Assembly: GCA_001787405.1 (NCBI GenBank) | Contig: MFWV01000011.1 | Location: 1-48,856 of the forward strand | Length of the DNA: 48,856 nucleotides | Direction of reading: 5' to 3' | Origin: Candidatus Pacebacteria bacterium RIFOXYA1_FULL_38_18 | GTDB lineage: Bacteria; Patescibacteriota; Microgenomatia; UBA1400; PJMF01 | In this document: positions 8,638 to 16,788 of the stretch, in pieces | Layout of the letters: the number at the start of each line of letters is the position of its first letter | How positions within the stretch are numbered: the first letter of the stretch is position 1 | Program-made: the position numbers and the translations under genes | The notes under the pieces: generated by a model | Databases searched by the model: none | Seen by the model: only the letters and a program-made list of their open reading frames with translations | What the model was told of the DNA's origin: nothing

Positions 8638-9828
8638 TCAATTTTTTTCCAAGCCAGTTTTTTTCCAAGCCAAACTCGCCACTTGTTTGGTTAATTCTGC
8701 CAAGCCCTCTCCGGTAAAACCGCTGAAGGGTAAAATAGTTTGCTGGGCTTTTTGAAAGCGCGAAGTGATTGCTTTAATCAATTCTGCAGGATAGATATCA
8801 ATCTTATTCAACGCAATCAATGAAGGTTTTTGCAACATTTCTGTTTGGTACGCTGTTAATTCACTGCATAAATGTTGGTATTGTTGCCAAACCAAATCGG
8901 CTTTGGTTTTGGAAGTGACATTGACATCAGACACAATATTTTCCTCCAAAAACAAAATAAATAACAACACTCTAGTATTTTCAATATGTCGCAAAAAGTC
9001 ATAACCCAAGCCTTTGCCACTATGCGCTCCTTCGATCAAGCCAGGAATATCTGCCACAACCAAATCTTTACCCTCTGGCAAGGTCAATACGCCTAGATTG
9101 GGCTCGATTGTGGTAAAGGGATAATCGGCTGTTTTGGGATTGGCACGAGTGATTTTGCTCAATAGAGTAGATTTGCCTGCATTGGGATATCCCACCAAAC
9201 CAATATCTGCCAAAAGCTTTAATTCCAAAACAACTTTTTTATGCTCCCCAGTGGAGCCATATTCCACTTCCAGAGGGGTGGTATTTATTGAGCTTTTGAA
9301 AGAAACATTGCCTCGTCCCCCAAAACCACCTTGGCAAAGCACTACTTTTTGCCCTTCTTCCAAGATTTCCACTAATTTAATTTTCTCTGGTAAAAACTTC
9401 AGTTCTCCAACATCTGGTGAGGAAGGTTGCTCTGTTTCTTTTTGAGCAACATATTTTGTCATCTCTATTTCTGCTTTTGCCAGAGTATGCTCCAAACTGT
9501 ATTTGTTGCGACGCCTAATACTCACTTCATTTTCTGCCATCAGCCACACTACCGTGCCCAGTGGTACTTCCCAAATCACATCATCACCTTTGGCACCGGT
9601 TTTTTTACGAGCGCCACCCACACCGCCTGCTGGAGCAGTAATTTCCTTGACACCAGAAAAGTGTTGAAGAGTATTGCGATGCTTGCTACCCATCAAGATA
9701 ACACTACCGCCATCACCACCCTGACCACCATCAGGACCCCCTTTGGGCACATATTTTTCTCTTCGAAAAGATATTCTGCCATTGCCACCACTGCCGGCCT
9801 TGATCGTTAATGAAACTAAATCAATCAT
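8638..9828 (-). CDS. obg: Obg/CgtA GTPase
   Basis: Glycine-rich Obg fold (KAGSGGNGRISFRREKYVPKGGPDGGQGGDGGSV), GYPNAGKSTLL G1, DIPGLIEGAHSGKGLG G3, NKID G4. Confidence 0.97.
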   Translation of the reverse strand: MIDLVSLTIKAGSGGNGRISFRREKYVPKGGPDGGQGGDGGSVILMGSKHRNTLQHFSGVKEITAPAGGVGGARKKTGAKGDDVIWEVPLGTVVWLMAENEVSIRRRNKYSLEHTLAKAEIEMTKYVAQKETEQPSSPDVGELKFLPEKIKLVEILEEGQKVVLCQGGFGGRGNVSFKSSINTTPLEVEYGSTGEHKKVVLELKLLADIGLVGYPNAGKSTLLSKITRANPKTADYPFTTIEPNLGVLTLPEGKDLVVADIPGLIEGAHSGKGLGYDFLRHIENTRVLLFILFLEENIVSDVNVTSKTKADLVWQQYQHLCSELTAYQTEMLQKPSLIALNKIDIYPAELIKAITSRFQKAQQTILPFSGFTGEGLAELTKQVASLAWKKTGLEKN

Positions 9829-9904
9829 GAAGTTATTATCTCATGGAAAAATCATAAAATTAAAAACGTAAAATTTGAGGTTATTTTGGCAGATTGAAAA
9901 TCAA

Positions 9905-11029
9905 TTACCTCAAGAAAGTAAGCGGATTCAAAAGTGCTCCACCCTGGCGAATCTCAAAATGTAGGTGCACTCCAGTAGAGCGACCAGTAGAGCCCATCTG
10001 TCCTAGCACATCACCGCGATTGACTCTTTGGCCCACCCTCACCTGAACTACGCTCATGTGAGCATACAGTGTTACAAAACCATTGCCATGATCAATTACT
10101 ACTCGATTGCCATAACCAGAATTGTCCACCCAGCCAGCAGTGACTACTACTCCTGAATCTGCAGCCAAAATTGAGCCACCACCTCTATTCGAAATATCAA
10201 TTGCCTTATGATAAAACTGGTATCCCTGACTAATTTGTCCAGCAGTTGGCCAAATAAAGGCACCAGAAGCGGACACACTCCCTGCATCAGGAGTCAAGAT
10301 TCCTACAGCAGTTCTACCCACAGAACCCGTAGCTGTCGGTTTCACTCCCTGAGGTACCATCAAATACTGACCAATTACCAACTCAAAAGTTTCATCATTT
10401 AAAAATTCATTAAATGGATAGTCAACAATCACCTGAGTTTGAGCTTCATCAAGACCATAGCGCTTACCAATAGAATAAATAGTTTCTCCTCTGGCAACTT
10501 TGTGTCTTACTCCATCTACTGGCAAAATTTTGAGCTCTTGACCTGGTTTAATTTTGGAAGTTTCAGTCAAATTATTTTCCCAAAGAACAGTATCTACTTG
10601 TAAACCATAACGAGCTGCAATGCTGGAAAGAGTTTCTTCTTCTTCCACTACATGAATAATAATTTCTCCACCACGATATTGCTGAACTTCCTCTGCTTGA
10701 AGAGTGTAAAAATCTGGAGCATAGGCAGTAGCCGTATTCAAAATGGGACCAATTGCTCCTCGCTCTTCTTCGTTATTTTCTTGCAAAATCAGTGGACCAG
10801 CTGTAATTAACAAAAAAACTAAACCAATAGTGCCAAAATGTAAAAATGGCCGAGCGTAACGACCGCGTTTTCTATATAACAAATCAACTAAAAAATCTTT
10901 CCCCATTTCCAGTCGAGCAAACCAATTATAACCACGCAGTCGAAAATACATGCGTAAAAAAACACCGTACTCGTGCCAGTCTTCCAAAAATTGAGATTTA
11001 GTAAAAAAAGAAAAAAAACTTTTTTTCAT
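9905..11029 (-). CDS. LysM-containing M23 metallopeptidase; start ATG 11029 (MKKSFFSFF) preferred over 11050
   Basis: Two LysM-like segments (VEEEETLSSIAARYGLQVDTVLWENNL; VARGETIYSIGKRYGL) and M23 GNRVVIDHGNGFVTLYAHMS...GSTGRSTGVHLHFEIR. Confidence 0.94.
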   Translation of the reverse strand: MKKSFFSFFTKSQFLEDWHEYGVFLRMYFRLRGYNWFARLEMGKDFLVDLLYRKRGRYARPFLHFGTIGLVFLLITAGPLILQENNEEERGAIGPILNTATAYAPDFYTLQAEEVQQYRGGEIIIHVVEEEETLSSIAARYGLQVDTVLWENNLTETSKIKPGQELKILPVDGVRHKVARGETIYSIGKRYGLDEAQTQVIVDYPFNEFLNDETFELVIGQYLMVPQGVKPTATGSVGRTAVGILTPDAGSVSASGAFIWPTAGQISQGYQFYHKAIDISNRGGGSILAADSGVVVTAGWVDNSGYGNRVVIDHGNGFVTLYAHMSVVQVRVGQRVNRGDVLGQMGSTGRSTGVHLHFEIRQGGALLNPLTFLR

Positions 11030-11067
11030 AATTGGACAGTGAGAAACCATTGTACCAGGAGTGGTAA

Positions 11068-11172
11068 AATTTATGAAACTACTCGGCTAATTTGTAAAAC
11101 TACCCAACCAACTTGTGAAGCTTCCCAATCAATTCATGAAATTACTCAATCAACTTGGCCAACTTAGCCGAA
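11068..11172. repeat. Degenerate 21-bp tandem repeat, about 5 units, intergenic
   Basis: aatttatgaaactactcggct / aatttgtaaaactacccaacc / aacttgtgaagcttcccaatc / aattcatgaaattactcaatc / aacttggccaacttagccgaa at exact 21-nt phase. Confidence 0.85.
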
Positions 11173-11216
11173 TGTTTAGTCGAGACGTCAACTTTGAGAG
11201 CCCAACTTTCTGACTT

Positions 11217-12581
11217 TTACCCCGTCTTGAGACTAGCTAAAAAGTCTTTATTGGAATTGGTGCGCTTCAATTTATCGATCAGCGTCTGAGTTCGCTCATC
11301 TTTGCCAAGCATATCCAACATTCTGTGTAGAGTCATAATTGATTGATAGGTAACCGAATCAATCATTAGATCATCTCTTCTAGTACCAGAGCGTTGTACG
11401 TCAATGGCTGGATAAACACGTCGCTCGGCCAAAGAACGTTCTAGATGCACTTCTTGATTACCTGTTCCTTTAAATTCCTCATAAACCAAGTCATCCATTC
11501 TAGAACCGGTATCAACTAAAGCCGTACCCACAATCGTTAATGAGCCTGGAATTTCAAAATTTCTAGCTGCTCCAAAAAATTTCTTGGGCGGGAAAAGAGC
11601 TGCCGGATCAAAACCACCAGACAGAGTTCTACCAGATGTAGGCATGGCTAGATTGTAAGCTCGAGCCAATCTAGTAATGGAATCCAGCAAAATCAAGACG
11701 TCCCGACCACTTTCCACCAATCTTTTTGCTCGTTCCAAAGCTAACTCGGCCACTCTCACTTGATCTTGAGCTGATTCGTCAAAGTTGCTAGCTGCCACTT
11801 CACCCTTACCTTTGGTAATATCTTCTATATGACGCTTGATATCAGTCACTTCCTCTGGACGCTCTCCCACTAAGACAGCCATGACATGAATGTCTGGATT
11901 GTTCTGAGCTGCTCCAGTAGCAATGTTTTTGAGAATCGTGGTTTTACCAGCCTTGGGCGGAGAAACCAATAAACTGCGCTGACCTTTGCCGATTGGCGCT
12001 ATCATATCGATAATACGCAAAGCCAATGGTTCTTTGCCTATTTCCAACTTAATCTGCTCATCAGGATAAACAGGAGTGAGGTTACCAAATTTTTGTCGGT
12101 CTAATTTCATAAATTCACTTACTGGCTGGTCATTAACTAGCTCTACTTGTAATAAGCCCCAATAGCGCTCATTTTCTTTGGGACGACGAGCTGGACCCTC
12201 CACCACATCACCGGGACGTAAACGAAAACGGCGAATTTGAGAGTTGGAAATATAGGCATCGCGATCATCTTCAGAAAAAGAAACTCGCAAAATTCCATGT
12301 CCATCTCTGGAATTATCCAAAACACCTCTAATCATTTCTGTATCAGAATTCATTTTTCTAACTGGAGAAGCATGACGGGAATCAAAAGAATTTCTAATTG
12401 ACGAACCTGGTTCAACACTCGCTGAAGAATCAGCTGTCTCGGGAACTTCGCTTTCGGTAGAAACAGTTTTTCCAACAGAAGCAGCCTCCTTGCTTGGAGT
12501 GGTTTTTTTGACTGAGTCGGTTTCTTCTTTAGTTGAAACATTTTCAACGACTTGGTCGGCATAAATTTTGCTTTTTGGCAT
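11217..12581 (-). CDS. rho: Transcription termination factor Rho with extended N-terminal region; start ATG 12581 preferred over TTG 12590
   Basis: [40 protein letters not shown]-like [53 protein letters not shown]. Confidence 0.97.
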
Positions 12582-12834
12582 AAAATACAAGCCCTTTCTC
12601 GGCTTAATTGATTATTTAATTACGATTGATTGTTTAATCACTAACTTGATTGATTCTCTCTTTATTCATCCCTGATTGTGGGGTTGTAGGTTCTTAACTT
12701 GTTATCCTTAATCTTTGTCATTAATCATTTAACTACTAACTTTGTTGGAGTTGGGAAATATGCAAAAGAAAACTACATTGAGAAAACTAAGCAATATTAT
12801 ACAAGTCACTGCAAATTTGTCAAAGAAAGTCTGT

Positions 12835-13764
12835 TTACAGTTTATTCAATAAGGAATTTTCTTCAGTAGGTATTAGCCTAGCATAACGGAAAATTCGAAT
12901 AGGAGAATCTAGATGTTTGCAAGTGTAAACAATTAAATCCGCCTGGTAATCTGTAATCTCGGTTCCTTCTTCGCCAAAATATATTTCATAAACATATTTA
13001 CGTTTATCAGCAATGATTTCTACGGTATCCCCTGGTTCTAAATCTGGTAAAAGATAAAAAGAGTGATAACGCCAATAATCATTTTTCCACCACCATTTAA
13101 AACCAAAACGGTGCCCGGCAACAATTATGGGTAATTCTTGATCGCCTGGTTGACCAAAATCAGGCACCAACCATACTCCGGTTTCCAAGGCCTCATTGTA
13201 ATCTTTGGTTGCTTGTAATAAAGAACGCACGCCGATGCGAGGAATAATTAGCCAATCCCCCTCTGGTAAATTTTTATTATAAGGTGGGCGAAAATTGGTT
13301 TTTGTAGGAGTGGCTTTCCGAGCATCAATCTCCTGTTGATTGATGGTTAAATCAAAATTGCCCTGCAATTCTCCCTCTTGTTTTTGAGCTTCTTGAGGCT
13401 GGCTAGCTGCCAATAATGAACTGGGTTGATTATCAGACGATTCTGCTGATTGGGCTGAGTTGGTTTGTTGAGGCGGGAAAATAGCAAAATACCATTTTGG
13501 TCCAAACCAAACCAAACTGATTGCTAAACTGGCAATCATTATTAGATTGAGCGCTGTTTTGAGAGCTTTAGTCCAAAGTTTTTTTAGCTTTTTTACTAGT
13601 TTTTTATACCAAACGTACCATTTTCTCCCAAGTAAGCTTCTTAAATGATGTTTCTGGGACTTTTTCTGAGAACGCTTGCCCAGTTCTCCCAGCCAAAGCT
13701 GTCGAACATTTGGAAAACGAATCAGAACTGGTCGGAATGCTAGTGATGCTGAATATTCTTTCAT
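12835..13764 (-). CDS. Sortase (class E-like), N-terminal basic/TM segment
   Basis: IPRIGV, IIVAGHRFG (catalytic His), DLIVYTCKHLDSPIRIFRYARL (Cys and Arg). Confidence 0.88.
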   Translation of the reverse strand: MKEYSASLAFRPVLIRFPNVRQLWLGELGKRSQKKSQKHHLRSLLGRKWYVWYKKLVKKLKKLWTKALKTALNLIMIASLAISLVWFGPKWYFAIFPPQQTNSAQSAESSDNQPSSLLAASQPQEAQKQEGELQGNFDLTINQQEIDARKATPTKTNFRPPYNKNLPEGDWLIIPRIGVRSLLQATKDYNEALETGVWLVPDFGQPGDQELPIIVAGHRFGFKWWWKNDYWRYHSFYLLPDLEPGDTVEIIADKRKYVYEIYFGEEGTEITDYQADLIVYTCKHLDSPIRIFRYARLIPTEENSLLNKL

Positions 13765-13921
13765 ATTATAAGATGAGGGGTATTCTAGCTTATAAAAGCC
13801 AAAAACTCAATATTATGGGATTATCGATCTGGATTAATTTGCAATTAGTTAACTAAATAAGTTTAAATAATTGAATGGTTGAATAATTAAATTAAGTTAA
13901 AAAAAATTTGAAAACCTCAAA

Positions 13922-13989
13922 AAAAGCCTGAAAAATTTAAAAGCCTGAAAAATTTAAAAAACTGAAAACTTTAAAAAAGCCAAAAACCA
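13922..13989. repeat. 17-bp tandem repeat: two exact units AAAAGCCTGAAAAATTT plus two degenerate units
   Basis: 13922-13938 and 13939-13955 identical; 13956-13972 and 13973-13989 degenerate in the same phase. Confidence 0.85.
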
Positions 13990-14015
13990 GAAAAACCGCG
14001 CAAGTCTGAAAAACC

Positions 14016-14070
14016 TTGAGCACTGGGTAGAAGTTCGGCAGCCTGCCCAACCGACCGAACTTCAACTCAA
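14016..14070. other. Long interrupted inverted repeat: TTGAG...GAAGTTCGG-N16-CCGAACTTC-aa-CTCAA
   Basis: GAAGTTCGG 14030-14038 pairs with CCGAACTTC 14055-14063; outer TTGAG 14016-14020 pairs with CTCAA 14066-14070. Confidence 0.8.
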
Positions 14071-14237
14071 CGCTCGATTGTTAACCTTTTACTATGTTTT
14101 AACTATGTTTCTAAATCTCAATAATTGAACTCATTTATTATACAACCTTTACCTATTTTTATCTATTATTAATCATTAATAACCATTAATATGCTGTTTA
14201 CCTCACCCGACAAAAATGCTATCTTAAGTTTATCTTA

Positions 14238-14362
14238 TTGGGCCTAGCCCAAAAAAGAACGGCAATATTATTTGTGGTTTATCCAGCGGTAATATTGCAC
14301 TTTATCCACCTTGTTTGTAGTCTGCCTGCCATGTTTCAGACACTGCAAACAGGTGGATTTTT
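14238..14362 (+). other. Three consecutive hairpins ending in an imperfect ~20-bp stem plus T-tract; candidate structured ncRNA/terminator
   Basis: TTGGGC-CTA-GCCCAA (14238-14252); GCAATATTA (14262-14270)/TAATATTGC (14290-14298); ATCCACCTTGTTTGTAGTCTG (14304-14324)/CAGACACTGCAAACAGGTGGAT (14337-14358), then TTTTT. Confidence 0.6.
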
Positions 14363-14363
14363 A

Positions 14364-14379
14364 ATAGTTACTCAACTAT
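14364..14379. promoter_or_regulatory. Dyad ATAGTT-ACTC-AACTAT, third copy of the motif seen at 6331 and 6361
   Basis: Same two half-sites and same 4-nt spacer length as upstream of the 6416 gene. Confidence 0.6.
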
Positions 14380-14604
14380 AACTCTTTTTTTACAACTTTG
14401 TCAACCTATAGTTTTTTTAAATGTTAAAACTCAATGTCTTATAAAACTAATTTCTAGGTAAATCCAGGCTTTAAATAAAAGTTTTCAACACCAATCACTC
14501 AAAAACCCTTTTGTTTGGAAAACTTGGGAAAACTCTTTTCATTCTCCCAAACACTCTTCTTCTTTACTCTCCTAGGTGCTCTTGAGTTATACTAAATAAA
14601 CACT

Positions 14605-16788
14605 ATGACAACTCATACTTTGCTTGAGCTTCGAATCGGTCGAGATGCAGAACACACTCCAGAAACAGCGACTCAGCTTTTTTCTACTCTACCTCATTTG
14701 CACAACAATCTTTTTTATCAATTGATTGGCAAACAAGAATATTTAAGTTTTGAGATTTTTGTTCGGCGACAAGTTATTTATTTTGGAATATTTGTACCCA
14801 CTCGCCTGGAAGAATATTTGCGAGGGACGATTTTGGCTAGTTATCCAGAGGTAATGATTATTGAACCCACCTCAGATCCTCTACTAGATTTCTTTACAGA
14901 AAATGGAAAATTAATCTCTCCCAATTTGGTCAAAACCGGTAGTTTGGGATTAAATAACGCCGATTATTTGCCCATGAAGACTTATCTAGATTTCAAAGAA
15001 ATAGATCCATTAGCCTCTCTTCTAGCCTTTTTATCCAAAAGCCAACCAGATGATCTGGTGCATATTCAATATCTGGTTGATGATGAAGGAGAAAATTGGA
15101 AAAACAGAGGTTGGGGACAAATTCAAGGAAAATCTAGTGATGATAGTGCCGGCACTTATCACCGACAAAAAGCTCTTATCCAAGAAAAACTAGACAATAA
15201 AGGTTTGCGAGTTGCCATCAAAATAGCCGTTCAAAGCAGTTCCCCCTCTAGAAGTAAGTTAATTCTGGAAACGCTGGCTGCTACTTATAGCTCCATTTCC
15301 AAGAGTGAAGGCAATTCTTTGGTTTTGCGCAAAAATTACTTCAGCAAACAAATTTTTATCAAGAAAATGATGAAAAGAGTTTTCAATCAGTTTATTTGGC
15401 AAAAAATGCATCTGTCTTTAAATGAATTGGCCACCCTTTATCATCTTCCCAATAAAAAACTGGGAGTAATTCCAAATATAGCCTGGGGTAAAAACTTATT
15501 GGGCGAACCACCAGAAAATCTACCCGTAGTTGCGCACGATACTCCGGCCGAAATCAAAGACCACATCAATGTTTTTGCCGAGACTACCTTTAGAAATCGC
15601 TTGGTTAAATATGGCTTAAAACATACCGATCGCCGTCGTCACATGTATGTAATCGGAAAAACCGGTACCGGCAAATCTACTCTGCTGGCCAATATGGCTA
15701 TTAATGATCTTAAGCAAAACGAGGGACTGTGTGTTATCGATCCGCATGGCGATCTAGTCGAGATGCTTCTCAATTACATTCCCTCTCATCGAATCAATGA
15801 TGTAATTTACTTTGATCCGGCTGATCCTGAACGTACTGTGCAGATCAATCTTTTTGAAGGAGAAAACGTGGTCCATCGAGAGCTAATTGCCTCTGGTATT
15901 ATCTCTATTTTCCAAAAACTATACGGTTATTCTTGGGGTCCTAGATTGGAATATATTTTACGCAATGCCCTTCTCACTCTTCTCAAAAGTGATAATGCTA
16001 AATTATCAGACATTCTGGAATTATTGACCAATCGCAAATTTCGCGATAAATACGTTGAAAAATTGAATGATCCTATCCTCAAAGGTTTCTGGGTTGATGA
16101 ATTTAATAAAATGCAGGACCGACAAAGAACCGAAGCAATTGCTTCTATTCTCAATAAGGTGGGGCAATTTGTCTCCTCTCCTCTGGTGCGTAACGTGGTT
16201 AATGCTCAAAAAAGCTCTTTTAGTGTAGAAGAAATCATGGATAAAGGAAAAATTTTGCTAGTAAATCTTTCTCAAGGACGCCTGGGAGAAGACAATGCTG
16301 CTCTATTGGGAGCCATGATGATTACCAAAATTCAATTGGCCGCCATGAGTCGTGTGCATATTGATGAAGAAAAACGTCGTGATTTTTACTTGTATGTTGA
16401 TGAGTTCCAAAATTTTGCCACTGAGGCTTTTATCAAAATTCTCTCCGAAGCCCGCAAATATCGACTTAATTTAACTCTGGCTAATCAATATATTGCTCAA
16501 ATTCCAGAGGAAGTGCAAAAGGCCATCTTTGGTAACTGCGGAAGTATTGCTAGTTTTGTCATGGGAGCAGAAGATGCTGCTCTTTTTACCAGAGAATATG
16601 GAGAACACTACTCTCCTGAGGAGTTGGTATCTCTAGAGAGATATCAAATTATTAATAAACTATCGATTGATAATATTATTAGCCCTCCTTTTCCGGCTAT
16701 TACTCTGGGGTTGGCTAAAAGCAGTAATAATAATCGAGAAAAAGTAATTCGAGTTAGTCGAGAACGATACTCCAAAAAAAGAGAGTAA
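14605..16788 (+). CDS. VirD4/TraG-like (HerA/FtsK-superfamily) type IV secretion coupling ATPase
   Basis: MYVIGKTGTGKSTLLANMAINDL (Walker A), CVIDPHGDLVEMLLNYIP, DFYLYVDEFQNFATEAFIKILSEARKYRLNLTLANQYIAQIPEEVQKAIFGNCGSIASFVMG. Confidence 0.88.
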   Translation: MTTHTLLELRIGRDAEHTPETATQLFSTLPHLHNNLFYQLIGKQEYLSFEIFVRRQVIYFGIFVPTRLEEYLRGTILASYPEVMIIEPTSDPLLDFFTENGKLISPNLVKTGSLGLNNADYLPMKTYLDFKEIDPLASLLAFLSKSQPDDLVHIQYLVDDEGENWKNRGWGQIQGKSSDDSAGTYHRQKALIQEKLDNKGLRVAIKIAVQSSSPSRSKLILETLAATYSSISKSEGNSLVLRKNYFSKQIFIKKMMKRVFNQFIWQKMHLSLNELATLYHLPNKKLGVIPNIAWGKNLLGEPPENLPVVAHDTPAEIKDHINVFAETTFRNRLVKYGLKHTDRRRHMYVIGKTGTGKSTLLANMAINDLKQNEGLCVIDPHGDLVEMLLNYIPSHRINDVIYFDPADPERTVQINLFEGENVVHRELIASGIISIFQKLYGYSWGPRLEYILRNALLTLLKSDNAKLSDILELLTNRKFRDKYVEKLNDPILKGFWVDEFNKMQDRQRTEAIASILNKVGQFVSSPLVRNVVNAQKSSFSVEEIMDKGKILLVNLSQGRLGEDNAALLGAMMITKIQLAAMSRVHIDEEKRRDFYLYVDEFQNFATEAFIKILSEARKYRLNLTLANQYIAQIPEEVQKAIFGNCGSIASFVMGAEDAALFTREYGEHYSPEELVSLERYQIINKLSIDNIISPPFPAITLGLAKSSNNNREKVIRVSRERYSKKRE

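Follow-up and report, generated by a model that had tools for sequence, protein, structure and literature searches.

In plasmid ColE1, a short, hairpin-rich antisense RNA, RNA I, lies over the longer RNA II of the opposite strand, and the two recognize each other loop to loop. In Campylobacter jejuni, CJnc190 and CJnc180 are mutually antisense sRNAs, one of which acts in trans while the other is its cis-encoded antagonist (PMC8687705). A locus in the window, a 48,856-nucleotide stretch of DNA from Candidatus Pacebacteria bacterium RIFOXYA1_FULL_38_18 (contig MFWV01000011.1), resembles each of these in part. As with CJnc190/CJnc180, it appears to encode two small RNAs antisense to each other, here predicted from sequence, and promoters, strand-specific hairpins, and terminators for the predicted transcripts are present on both strands. 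It departs from that pair in that the antisense RNA would carry an extra, separate hairpin (hairpin T), whose near-invariant loop is complementary to a loop of the sRNA, and in that the pair is conserved across a whole class; no sequence relation is claimed. Like RNA I and RNA II, the locus combines a short hairpin-rich RNA with a longer overlapping RNA of the opposite strand, and loop-loop recognition is proposed for it too. Unlike them, it is chromosomal and away from the origin, and the loop of hairpin T is a separate element rather than an antisense copy of the sRNA loop.

What might such a pair do? We put the probability at about two in three that the sRNA and the antisense RNA are mutually antagonistic, their loops kissing and the long duplex between them being degraded. 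Comparison of sequences establishes both structures, the strand of each, their promoters, the single copy per genome throughout the class, and the complementarity of the loops. A literature search outside the 2017 survey of 224 RNA motifs from bacteria returned no regulatory RNA of this kind for Microgenomates, and the pair is apparently undescribed. A single-copy RNA pair kept class-wide in small genomes likely matters to the cell, and this one offers a concrete entry to post-transcriptional control in uncultured, ultra-small bacteria, as well as a case of a base-pairing motif that relocates within an RNA while its partner loop stays fixed. If, beyond this, the pair defines the class in the way considered below, it would serve ultra-small bacteria as a core post-transcriptional switch; 6S RNA was not recognizable in the one genome examined.

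The gap and its predicted RNAs

The genome to which the window belongs (G000) spans 832 kb in 13 contigs. The 840-bp non-coding span singled out in the preliminary description is real: positions 13765 to 14604 contain no open reading frame (ORF) of at least 80 aa, and just three ORFs of 26 to 47 aa, each with a TTG start, overlap the stretch from 13960 to 14420. One border is a sortase-like gene and the other a VirD4-like gene, the named relatives of which come from Candidatus Pacebacteria, Woesebacteria, Amesbacteria, and other Microgenomates (Patescibacteria); from these names we take the class to be Microgenomatia. Beyond the gap, the minus strand carries, in order, the sortase-like gene, rho, and the genes for a LysM/M23 peptidase and an ObgE-like GTPase (8638 to 13764). 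We infer that each strand of the gap itself carries an RNA gene and that the two genes overlap, with the following features.

12835 to 13764, minus strand: sortase-like gene, bordering the gap
14007 to 14368, minus strand: putative antisense partner RNA, about 360 nt, its ends placed by promoter P- and the T-run of hairpin T
14018 to 14075, minus strand: hairpin T, 3' hairpin of the antisense RNA, supported by covariation and G-U excess
14197 to 14225, plus strand: predicted sRNA promoter P+, TTTACC-17-TATCTT, at the same place in relatives
about 14233 to 14363, plus strand: putative sRNA gene, about 130 nt, its start placed from the -10 element and its end from the T-run
14238 to 14252, plus strand: 5' hairpin (hpB) of the sRNA, stem-loop TTGGGCCTAGCCCAA, from the fold
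14262 to 14298, plus strand: hairpin A, conserved core of the sRNA, supported by covariation and G-U excess
14304 to 14358, plus strand: hairpin 1, predicted sRNA terminator in the window's genus and some relatives, with TTTTT next
14320 to 14330, plus strand: candidate sRNA recognition loop, GUCUGCCUGCC, which includes CUGYYY, from motif conservation and duplex energy
14375 to 14411, minus strand: predicted promoter P-, TTGACA-18-TATAGT (core 14404 to 14375, 11/12 consensus match), with conserved TATAGG upstream
14605 to 16788, plus strand: gene for a VirD4/TrwB-like ATPase, bordering the gap

The three consecutive hairpins reported in the preliminary description, the last with its TTTTT, are all found at these positions. 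In most relatives hairpin A is followed by a plus-strand T-run and serves as the sRNA terminator. The genus of the window, like some others, has no T-run at hairpin A but has one after a third hairpin; the plus-strand RNA of the window would therefore run from about 14233 to 14363. This supports the earlier suggestion of an independent RNA ending near 14362, with a conserved promoter lying just upstream of the first hairpin. Relatives also have a 5' hairpin at the hpB position, of different sequence, and their predicted sRNAs are about 80 to 130 nt long and terminator-ended. The 167 nt from 14200 to 14366, which take in the three hairpins, have a folding energy of -49.6 kcal/mol, where shuffles average -32.8 (z = -4.1) and none of 200 is as stable; the fold of the sRNA is one of separate hairpins.

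When 16 relatives were read side by side, the layout was constant. Fifteen of these first 16 have P+ as TTTAC[ACT]-N16-18-TAnnnT or close to it, the 16th having a weaker version, and in other families the promoter shifts to a TTGACA-17-TATGTT-like form. A conserved box, AAGATnnAn, abuts the -35 element in the window (14183 to 14196, plus strand) and in relatives, and in the window's family the -10 element is far from consensus; this combination suggests that P+ may be an activated promoter.

P- is the stronger of the two promoters and reads TATAGG-TTGACA-17/18-TATACT or similar in relatives. A promoter matching at least 10 of 12 consensus positions is found on this side in 72 of 108 loci, compared with 9.4% of shuffles, and P- is not recognizable in about a third of loci. 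TATAGG lies 0 to 3 nt upstream of the -35 element in many families, in variable phase (14399 to 14411, minus strand, in the window), and is a possible activator or UP-like element. The RNA predicted to start at P- spans the entire sRNA on the opposite strand and continues to hairpin T, positioned upstream of P+. The arms of this hairpin (14018 to 14038 and 14055 to 14075) are 21 nt each and 81% complementary, enclosing a 16-nt loop that contains GUUGGGCAGGC at 14041 to 14051, with the near-invariant GGGCAGG. They correspond to the GC-richer inverted repeat of the preliminary description, which did not assign it to a further RNA, predicted here on the minus strand and served by a strong promoter of its own. 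The 17-bp tandem repeat reported there (13922 and 13939) exists and is A-rich, but it is not evidently conserved in relatives and is given no weight. A dyad near 14479 to 14525 plays no part in our interpretation.

Overlapping antisense RNAs are also the architecture of type I toxin-antitoxin systems, in which case the minus-strand RNA would encode a small toxin and the sRNA would be the antitoxin. However, the minus strand offers only ORFs of 26 and 42 aa with TTG starts, no common reading frame is evident among relatives of variable length, and the region between the hairpins varies in both length and sequence from one relative to another. A toxin-antitoxin function is accordingly rated as highly improbable.

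Covariation and strand assignment

On which strand does each hairpin act? RNA tolerates G-U pairs, which turn into A-C mismatches when the same hairpin is read from the opposite strand. Over 16 loci, there are 44 G-U pairs against 3 A-C mismatches in hairpin A read in the plus orientation, and 45 against 9 in hairpin T read in the minus orientation. In larger sets the ratio is 38:3 across 40 loci of hairpin A and 263:57 across 90 loci of hairpin T. This asymmetry is strong grounds for assigning hairpins A and T to opposite strands. The idea that the whole gap is a single minus-strand RNA was dropped on this account, and also because the box between the hairpins is a plus-strand promoter.

In a DNA-level search of 38 genomes, it was chiefly the hairpins that proved to be conserved, in many genera of the family. 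In hairpin A, 14 of 18 model pairs have changed on both sides in an alignment fitted to the model (an unfitted alignment gave 8 of 19); 95.9% of cells are paired, and none of 500 shuffles did as well. Hairpin T has double-sided changes at 11 of 18 pairs. The hairpins stand far above chance because they are kept with compensatory changes in dozens of genomes, the kind of substitution that the preliminary description had named as a check on its proposed RNA.

Could hairpins A and T be mere intrinsic terminators of the neighboring genes, with no RNA product of their own? In several relatives, T-runs flank hairpin A on either side, and it could there serve convergent genes. Yet both elements have conserved promoters aimed into them, the stems change while the apical loops and internal bulges stay conserved, there is one copy per genome, and the spacing from P+ to hairpin A stays within a narrow range although the neighbors differ. 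We find the terminator explanation improbable. Neither is the sRNA simply the leader of its plus-strand neighbor, because the identity of that neighbor varies and some families have a convergent gene next to it.

Loop complementarity and its possible function

The preliminary description also missed that the two RNAs have complementary loops. The motif CUGYYY, counted outside the constant stem of hairpin A, is present in 84 of 109 loci, where dinucleotide shuffles give 16.5 (at most 28 over 200 rounds). Its site depends on lineage. Most families have it in the loop of the 5' hairpin, much of the family to which the window belongs has it at the hairpin A apex, and the window's own genus, along with certain other genera, has it in the third hairpin. 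Wherever it stands, it is complementary, with G-U allowed, to the GGGCAGG of the hairpin T loop, and C/U swaps within the motif face a G of that loop, so that pairing survives as either G-C or G-U. The motif lies fully within a predicted hairpin loop in 42 of 86 cases (3.5% of all hexamers do). For its part, hairpin T, loop and stem, is found in 92 of the 109 loci, on the strand opposite the sRNA, and in 91 of 92 folds at least five of the six bases of GGGCAG are unpaired.

Motif and hairpin T tend to occur together (79 loci with both, 12 with neither, 18 with one; Fisher p = 5e-6, a value inflated by the kinship of the genomes). Duplex energies lie between -11.5 and -19.2 kcal/mol for the four loop pairs evaluated, the pairing of the GUCUGCCUGCC loop with the hairpin T loop in the window being the -19.2. 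Among the 4,096 target hexamers that could pair with variable parts of the sRNA, G-U allowed, GGGCAG ranks 16th, and the ranking does not single it out since any run of pyrimidines can pair with a G-rich target. The pairing offers no compensatory proof either, because the hairpin T loop hardly varies. Loop-loop recognition between the sRNA and hairpin T seems likely. A bolder claim is that this is a class-defining RNA pair of the Microgenomatia, with a dedicated, near-invariant loop pair whose match was kept as the motif moved among three hairpins; we judge the odds of this to be even.

How might the two RNAs antagonize each other? We infer transcription of both, and the sRNA may be the effector and the antisense RNA its antagonist. 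(i) P+ would drive a short, terminator-ended sRNA that displays the pyrimidine loop motif CUGYYY. (ii) P- would drive a longer RNA comprising the full complement of the sRNA plus hairpin T, a dedicated docking hairpin presenting GGGCAGG. (iii) The CUGYYY loop would physically kiss the GGGCAGG loop. (iv) The kissing would nucleate a long duplex between the sRNA and the antisense portion. (v) The duplex would be degraded, and each RNA would thereby antagonize its partner.

Other partners for either loop were considered. A search for messenger RNA targets recognized through the seed was negative: complements of the motif were not enriched around the starts of genes across 400 kb of a relative, G005. 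As for additional copies of hairpin T as targets, the hairpin T model, run on 10 whole genomes, found its own locus and otherwise one marginal match (E = 0.97). The sequence TTGGGCAGG has 16 sites in the genome, and among those listed and folded only the one at the locus lies in a hairpin T-like fold. Thirteen of the 16 are on the reverse strand of the genome, and two lie 490 bp apart on one strand (G000:C3:70798 and C3:71288).

The main rival to mutual antagonism is cis-attenuation of a sortase-rho operon, with P- as its distal promoter, hairpin T as a conditional leader terminator, and the sRNA setting the level of read-through. Even with short flanks, rho is seen on the minus strand beyond hairpin T in 33 of 109 loci and the sortase gene in 19 (in the window the sortase gene comes first and rho next). 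Among 20 loci with longer flanks, five show rho no more than about 3.3 kb away and a further three show the sortase gene, and many loci have a T-run at hairpin T. However, neither gene was found within about 4 kb in representatives of families f11, f20, f22, f30, f37, f42, f46, and f3, and two of these, f11 and f3, retain the sRNA and hairpin T although rho and sortase were not found nearby. In some loci, moreover, a separate promoter-like site can be seen by eye between hairpin T and the gene. On balance, attenuation is an unlikely explanation, if less so than any other alternative discussed here.

Distribution and identity of the sRNA

How widespread is the sRNA? Two covariance models were used, R2, which covers P+ to hairpin A, and R3, a wider one. 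R2 finds the sRNA in 72 of 88 genomes of the order, at essentially one locus each, the lone double match being the same place on both strands. R3 finds it in 223 of 374 genomes of the class Microgenomatia (the Candidatus Pacebacteria/Woesebacteria group), or 189 of the 300 good genomes. In a phylum-wide sample of 380, R3 gave 25 matches, all within the class, and none in the other classes of Patescibacteria sampled. The conservation among relatives that the preliminary description proposed to look for thus extends across the order and the class, and it is nearly certain, from the comparative evidence, that the sRNA family exists.

Being near-universal, single-copy, and equipped with a strong promoter, the sRNA could be a divergent housekeeping RNA (6S RNA, RNase P RNA, or tmRNA). 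6S RNA (RF00013) in particular is comparable in being widespread, single-copy, small, and strongly promoted, and no 6S covariance-model match was found in the genome at E of 10 or less, with a model that detects only 8 of 14 controls. The sRNA itself, however, has no match to 6S RNA and lacks its rod-with-bubble structure, its 5' and 3' ends not pairing into such a rod. RNase P RNA and tmRNA are ruled out, as the genome has its copies elsewhere (C1:5113-5475 and C8:2936-3331). Rfam 15 gave no match in the window at the gathering score, and a search at relaxed E of the window and 20 relatives gave only sub-threshold chance matches, plus one tRNA in a flank, a result in line with a new structured RNA. 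A housekeeping identity is therefore very hard to credit.

The locus lies 30 to 35 kb from dnaA in both G000 and G005, and a chromosomal replication origin or control region was weighed as well. In the complete genome G005, though, the cumulative GC-skew minimum (50 to 60 kb) coincides with dnaA (61 kb), about 32 kb from the locus at 28.7 kb, and the gap has no perfect TTATNCACA DnaA box. At this resolution, skew and dnaA position rule out oriC, leaving an origin function a negligible chance, and a ColE1-type RNA I/RNA II system, which would lie at an origin and control priming, fails on the same ground. In G005, the entry L053 (G005:C1:1-20000) has 9,622 bases masked as N, and the GC-skew value there uses about half of the bases.

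Several families lack both the CUGYYY motif and hairpin T. In three loci of one family (L152, L153, and L184), extra terminators stand beside the sRNA, and their loops carry CCGTCTGC, like the apex of hairpin A there; these are perhaps repeated terminator loops or uptake-like sequences.
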